39,687 nucleotides of DNA from Peptococcaceae bacterium (GTDB taxonomy: Bacteria > Bacillota > Desulfitobacteriia > Desulfitobacteriales > Syntrophobotulaceae): NCBI GenBank assembly GCA_012520405.1, contig JAAYOJ010000165.1:1-39687 (forward strand), read 5' to 3'. The translations under genes and the position numbers were made by a program. Shown one piece after another: positions 5,535 to 7,893 of the stretch. Under the pieces are notes generated by a model. The model was not told the origin of the DNA. It saw nothing but the letters and a program-made list of their open reading frames with translations, and did not search any database. Position 1 is the first letter of the stretch. Every line of letters begins with the position of its first letter.

Positions 5535-5566
5535 AATAAGGAATATTTTATACAGGAGTGAGCTTC

Positions 5567-5923
5567 ATGTCCCCATGTCCGAGAGGAACTATTTCTTACC
5601 GCATTAAATCCGGTGACACTTTTCATAACATCGCCCAAAGGTTTAATACGCAAGTGGCTGCCATAATATCGGTCAATCCCGGAGTGGATCCCAAGAACCT
5701 ACATGTCGGCCAAAATATTTGCATTCCTGTAAGAAGGAAAGTTGTTCCCTGTTCCCCGGCAAACAGGTATGTTATCAAAGCCGGTGATACTTTTTCGAAA
5801 CTGGCTCAAAGATATGGTTTATCTGTAGCTGCTTTAACCGCTGTCAATCCGGGAGTAGATCCTTTGAATCTTCAAGTAGGGCAGATTATTTGCTTGCCGG
5901 TAAGAAGGCGGAGACGTCATTAA
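5567..5923 (+). CDS. Small protein with two LysM domains
   Basis: A 118-residue protein made almost entirely of two LysM repeats: about residues 11-56 (YRIKSGDTF ... ICIPV) and 66-112 (YVIKAGDTF ... ICLPV), each with the NPGVDP-x-NL-x-VGQ core. LysM domains bind GlcNAc-containing glycans such as peptidoglycan. There is no signal peptide or membrane segment, so the protein is probably not exported; in spore formers such proteins are often laid onto the cortex or coat from the mother cell, as with SafA. I chose the ATG at 5567, 8 bases after AGGAG; a GTG at 5558 overlaps that ribosome site. The C-terminus is basic (RRRRRH). Confidence 0.85.
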   Translation: MSPCPRGTISYRIKSGDTFHNIAQRFNTQVAAIISVNPGVDPKNLHVGQNICIPVRRKVVPCSPANRYVIKAGDTFSKLAQRYGLSVAALTAVNPGVDPLNLQVGQIICLPVRRRRRH

Positions 5924-7151: not shown

Positions 7152-7178
7152 ACTAAGACTTGAACATATCATATTATA
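7152..7178 (+). promoter_or_regulatory. SigK-like promoter for the interrupted M15 peptidase gene
   Basis: AC (7152-7153), 16 bases, CATATTATA (7170-7178): the same arrangement as ahead of the LysM gene at 5508. It lies 110 bases before the TTG start. AT-rich context makes chance matches possible. Confidence 0.35.
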
Positions 7179-7287
7179 AATACATTTTAAACATAGGTTT
7201 TAAACATATTATTAACTTTGAATATTAATCCCATTTGTAGTTTTCTTAAAAAATGTTTTTGTTTTGTTATTATGAGGAGGGTTTAAC

Positions 7288-7389
7288 TTGGGTGTTCAAG
7301 ATACAGGCTGTTTATGGCGTGTACCTGCCGGCCATGGTCTTATCAGGGAATATGACGGCAGATGTACCTACCACTCTGATTGAGCCTTT
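7288..7389 (+). other. N-terminal segment of the peptidase gene ending in an in-frame TGA
   Basis: A well-placed GAGGAGG (7275-7281) is followed by a TTG at 7288 that opens 31 codons (MGVQDTGCLWRVPAG ... CTYHSD) and then a TGA at 7381-7383. The frame continues without a shift into the peptidase domain that follows (AF, then VAPNFRMREF). The downstream GTG at 7390 has no ribosome site of its own, so translation most likely starts here and either stops or reads through. The TGA stands where a single base change from TGG (Trp) or another sense codon would restore the gene. Confidence 0.7.
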
Positions 7390-7893
7390 GTGGCTCCGAA
7401 TTTCAGGATGAGAGAATTTAATCCTGCAGGAGTACGTCCTTATGGAGTGATGAGGAAACTGGTTGACCAACTACAGAATATGCGCTGGTCCCTGGGAGCC
7501 CCGATTATTATAACCAGCGGCTATAGAAGCGGTAGTACCCATGGTTCAGGTCTAGCCGCAGATATCTCCGTGCCCAGAAGGACATTTATTCAGGTGGCTC
7601 AAGCGGCTTACAACGCCGGATTTCGCAGAATAGAAGTAATTAAACGTCCGGGAACTTCTTATTGGAACAACATGAGCGTAGGCGGTCATATCCACGTTGA
7701 TGTGTACGATGGCAGTGGCAACACAACCAGAGGAACTATTTATGATTGCCCCTCTTGCTCTTCTATACCGTGTTTTCCATGGTATGCCTGGGGATATGGT
7801 TCAGTATGGTCCACCAGCCAGCCCAATACTTTTTCCCAGTTGATGGCTAACCTCAGAGCTGACCGTAGGGTAACCGGGTATAGAGGATGCTAG
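7390..7893 (+). CDS. Peptidase M15-type (DD-carboxypeptidase-like) domain, gene interrupted by TGA
   Basis: 168 residues in the open part. The domain has the M15 (VanY/YcbK-like) layout: FRMREF near the start, PIIITSGYRS, then THGSGLAADI and GGHIHVDV. His51, Asp58 and His100 or His102 are the expected zinc ligands, and Asp104 is near the catalytic position. Such enzymes cleave D-Ala peptide bonds in peptidoglycan. There is no signal peptide in either the open part or the upstream segment, which would suit a spore-associated role like the LysM protein. The C-terminal third is Cys, Trp and Ser rich (DCPSCSSIPCFPWYAWGYG). Translation from the GTG at 7390 is doubtful because it lacks a ribosome site; see the segment upstream. 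Confidence 0.75.
   Translation: MAPNFRMREFNPAGVRPYGVMRKLVDQLQNMRWSLGAPIIITSGYRSGSTHGSGLAADISVPRRTFIQVAQAAYNAGFRRIEVIKRPGTSYWNNMSVGGHIHVDVYDGSGNTTRGTIYDCPSCSSIPCFPWYAWGYGSVWSTSQPNTFSQLMANLRADRRVTGYRGC

Follow-up and report, generated by a model that had tools for sequence, protein, structure and literature searches.

The window, which is the whole stretch of 39,687 nucleotides that was analysed, carries a gene for an M15-type peptidase whose reading frame is interrupted by a TGA (Table 1). An earlier note on this DNA had described a ribosome site, a TTG start codon at 7288, 31 codons, the TGA at 7381-7383 and the resumption of the same frame behind it, and we find each of these in the sequence; its count of 168 residues beyond the TGA has to be corrected to 169, after which the frame is terminated by a TAG at 7891-7893. 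The ribosome site of TTG 7288 is predicted to pair with the anti-Shine-Dalgarno sequence more strongly than that of any other start scored in the window. Predicted pairing is weak for the two start codons that follow the stop, the GTG at 7390 (-1.9 kcal/mol), which had already been described as having no ribosome site, and the ATG at 7408 (-2.3 kcal/mol). Reinitiation aside, neither of them has a well-spaced ribosome site that could rescue the domain.

Table 1. Coordinates of the interrupted peptidase gene and associated features in the window
Feature	Position	Strand	Remarks
Sigma-K-like promoter match AC-N16-CATATTATA	7152..7178	+	similar sites in 7/9 orthologues vs 0.28 expected
Shine-Dalgarno GAGGAGGG	7274..7281	+	-12.0 kcal/mol with anti-Shine-Dalgarno
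M15_3-type peptidase gene, probable pseudogene	7288..7893	+	201 codons plus TAG; in-frame TGA is codon 32
Upstream segment, 31 codons	7288..7380	+	invariant Cys C8 and C26; in every homologue
Premature TGA	7381..7383	+	TGG (Trp) in same-genus orthologue; Asp/Asn/Thr in others
Hairpin GAGCC-TTTGT-GGCTC	7382..7396	+	also forms, with changed pairing, in intact orthologue
Downstream segment, 169 codons	7384..7890	+	M15 metal-ligand pattern H85, D92, H136 (full-length numbering)

The genomes of relatives and public genome contigs were searched for homologues, which yielded nine of full length that share the start M/L/V-G-[VI]-x-D-[TS]-G-C. When the 31-residue segment and the position of the TGA were aligned with these homologues, as the earlier note had suggested, the segment was present in all nine and codon 32 was a sense codon in all nine; none begins at the VAPNF position without the upstream segment. 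Because all nine full-length homologues have this segment, the true gene is, by this comparison, 7288-7893, with codon 32 a stop in this genome only among those searched. The GTG after the stop was rejected as the true start for the same reason, and the corrected gene model 7288-7893 replaces the GTG reading frame 7390-7893. The split frame is not a chance product, since relatives have kept the frame over its full length of 201 codons. The closest comparison is provided by an orthologue of the same genus (G001; JAAYMU010000195.1) that is 95% identical and has TGG (Trp) at codon 32, and in which the genes for a LysM protein, an uncharacterised protein, DUF1540, the M15 peptidase and DUF1294 follow each other in the same order. 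Across the homologues, the residue at codon 32 is W, D, N or T, and in none of the nine is it Cys. A stop at this codon was not found elsewhere among the genomes searched, nor was a second copy of the TGA allele found in the relatives' genomes or the public contigs.

The domain behind the stop matches Pfam Peptidase_M15_3 (PF08291) with 36.5 bits against a cut-off of 23.2. The earlier note had credited the peptidase with all metal ligands, which agrees with our alignments: the pattern H85-x6-D92...H136 is invariant among relatives, and the first two ligands, H85 and D92, are matched in an alignment by H154 and D161 of 1lbu, a muramoyl-pentapeptide carboxypeptidase. There are six invariant Cys residues in total, and because two of them, C8 and C26, precede the stop, a product of restarted translation would be without them. 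A structure prediction based on seven sequences gave a poor model (mean pLDDT 46.9). Taken from sequence, the gene product is probably a cell-wall peptidase of the spore stage.

The sigma-K-like promoter proposed earlier gains support from the orthologues, because sites of the form AC-N14..17-CATA-N2..3-TA within 150 nt upstream of the start occur in seven of nine, the expected number of 0.28 coming from dinucleotide shuffles. Late mother-cell expression of the M15 gene may thus reasonably be inferred. Upstream, at 5558-5923, lies a gene for a 121-codon protein with two LysM domains, which in several relatives is conserved in the vicinity of the genes for DUF1540 and the M15 peptidase and is possibly spore-associated.

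The gene has not been kept throughout the family. In a third member of the genus (L184:275-934, G002:C89), the M15 gene is absent between DUF1540 and DUF1294 on one contig, and its place is filled by an unrelated 219-codon gene that looks nitroreductase-like by eye. In another genus (L020:2391-2806, G005:C61), the first 41 codons are kept and are followed by internal deletions and a frameshift; judged on its sequence, this copy is independently broken. Most other genomes of the family gave no match to the M15 gene. Because it was lost or broken more than once among relatives, the gene is dispensable, and this repeated loss weakens the earlier suggestion that spores could be affected by its absence.

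Compared with the same-genus orthologue, the gene in the window has a dN of 0.025 and a dS of 0.23, which gives a dN/dS of 0.11; between intact pairs in the family, dN/dS is 0.05-0.07. After the stop, 11.5 nonsynonymous differences were seen, compared with approximately 46 expected if the whole branch had been free of selection, and under a rough model it is unlikely that half or more of the branch was free of selection (P about 0.001). The low dN/dS and the small number of nonsynonymous changes therefore mean that the stop is recent or else not real. Apart from the TGA, the gene shows no sign of decay, so that the description of the domain as otherwise undecayed holds, with purifying selection on the rest of it.

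To establish how TGA is used in this genome, we surveyed in-frame stops in about 0.63 Mb of sampled contigs against 0.46 Mb of the same-genus relative, which gave 141 orthologous matches with 48,876 aligned residues. No further in-frame stop within a real gene was found in these roughly 140 matches. The other stops listed were read as lying in pre-start leaders, in poorly aligned stretches or in frames antisense to real genes; one of them, a second apparent W-to-TGA case (L134:10538-10963), was rejected because it is antisense to a response-regulator-like gene. RF2 is present in the genome, and the frames tallied in the window end in TAA (21), TGA (4) or TAG (2). Because real genes of the sample contain no other in-frame stop, TGA is an ordinary stop here, and its reassignment to Trp was rejected on the grounds of a single case in about 140 matches and the presence of RF2. 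A suppressor tRNA was likewise rejected: no TCA anticodon occurs among the tRNAs identified, and the tRNA-Trp is the same as in the intact relative.

We favour, with a probability of about 72%, a loss of function through a recent change of TGG to TGA in an M15_3 peptidase gene that is dispensable and probably belongs to the spore stage. Among the explanations offered by the earlier note, a recent nonsense mutation is the best supported, given the TGG in the syntenic orthologue, the purifying selection and the universal upstream segment. The ancestral gene would have encoded a 201-residue M15_3 metallopeptidase of a bacterial family, probably used at the spore stage as its sigma-K-like promoter suggests, and codon 32 would have changed from TGG (Trp) to TGA recently and in this lineage. 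Translation from the strong TTG should then end after 31 residues, and as no downstream start with a ribosome site would rescue the domain, the gene would be at an early stage of loss of function. Misreading of the UGA by tRNA-Trp would restore the ancestral Trp, so that a little normal protein may persist. The locus would then be a gene loss caught at its first step, with a lone stop in an otherwise intact frame and with family members that have broken copies or none, and new biology is not needed to explain the split gene.

Because the stop is the only defect, the data also fit an error, a minority allele or a functional leaky readthrough. The main rival is that the TGA is an error of sequencing or assembly, or an allele carried by a minority strain of the metagenome, and that most cells have a sense codon and an intact gene. 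The evidence for the stop comes from a single contig of a draft assembly (2.54 Mb in 225 contigs, with an estimated completeness of 95.8%), and its being the only defect, the low dN/dS and the failure of our searches to find a second copy of the TGA allele all count in favour of this rival. However, the lack of other in-frame stops in real genes of the survey indicates that gene-breaking base errors are rare in this assembly, and the independent losses in relatives mean that a real loss is to be expected now and then. We consider an error or a minority allele unlikely, although it deserves more weight than any other alternative.

Second among the rivals is a leaky readthrough that keeps the gene functional, in which tRNA-Trp(CCA) misreads the UGA and inserts Trp, a lower dose of the protein being sufficient or useful. 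The only tRNA-Trp found in the assembly (CCA anticodon; L161:1498-1571) has A24 and a G27-U43 wobble pair topping the anticodon stem (own position numbering). According to PMC13092985, readthrough of UGA is made easier by the changes A9C and G24A in tRNA-Trp, and A24 is the base that the latter change produces; for a UGA reporter in B. subtilis whose RF2 is normal, PMC7918605 cites a readthrough of 6%. Given the A24 tRNA and these reports, it is plausible that this UGA is sometimes misread as Trp. Such misreading would reinstate the ancestral residue, and the low dN/dS is in line with the values below 1 reported for bacterial genes with in-frame stops (PMC7918605). However, the intact TGG relative has a tRNA-Trp with 100% identity to this one, and the tRNA is also the same in another genus (three genomes of the family), so it is not adapted to this stop; moreover, the stop was found in a single genome, and its recency accounts equally well for the low dN/dS. 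Functional readthrough is therefore a distinctly improbable explanation, and its more specific form, in which the TGA would act as a dose switch that the A24 tRNA-Trp(CCA) reads as Trp often enough to be useful in late sporulation, with the gene still under selection, is very improbable.

What speaks for a programmed recoding of the UGA, through selenocysteine or a stimulatory hairpin, is the 5-bp hairpin that starts on the stop codon. The hairpin exists and has a predicted stability of -8.4 kcal/mol, but a role specific to the stop is not borne out, because the intact TGG relative forms an equally stable one at the same place (-8.9 kcal/mol). The hairpin thus did not arise with the stop; it is part of the coding sequence in this genus rather than a stop-linked signal, and it was rejected as a stimulator of readthrough. 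For selenocysteine, no tRNA-Sec was recognised in the assembly, the best match being a tRNA-Ser, although only 16 tRNAs were recovered and the absence of a tRNA from this incomplete set is weak evidence alone. Stronger evidence comes from SelB, for which no match in the genome reaches the cut-off (a match of 181.9 bits was rejected as EF-Tu), and from the homologues, in which codon 32 never encodes Cys. With a stop private to this genome, a variable residue at its position, no selenocysteine machinery found and a hairpin older than the stop, selenocysteine was rejected and programmed recoding in general is scarcely credible.

The predicted peptidase resembles Peptidase M15_3 and 1lbu in its Pfam match above the cut-off and in the shared H-x6-D pattern, the similarity to 1lbu itself being weak (E 0.002). 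It differs from them by its additional N-terminal segment with two invariant Cys, by its six invariant Cys overall and by a C-terminal part that lies outside the Pfam match. The interruption can be compared with the in-frame stops that Belinky et al. (2021, PMC7918605) described in conserved genes of bacteria. The stops retained by these authors occupy the same codon in at least two species, whereas the stop described here occurs in a single genome; what they share with it is a single stop in a frame conserved on both sides, a dN/dS well below 1 and an evolutionarily young age.
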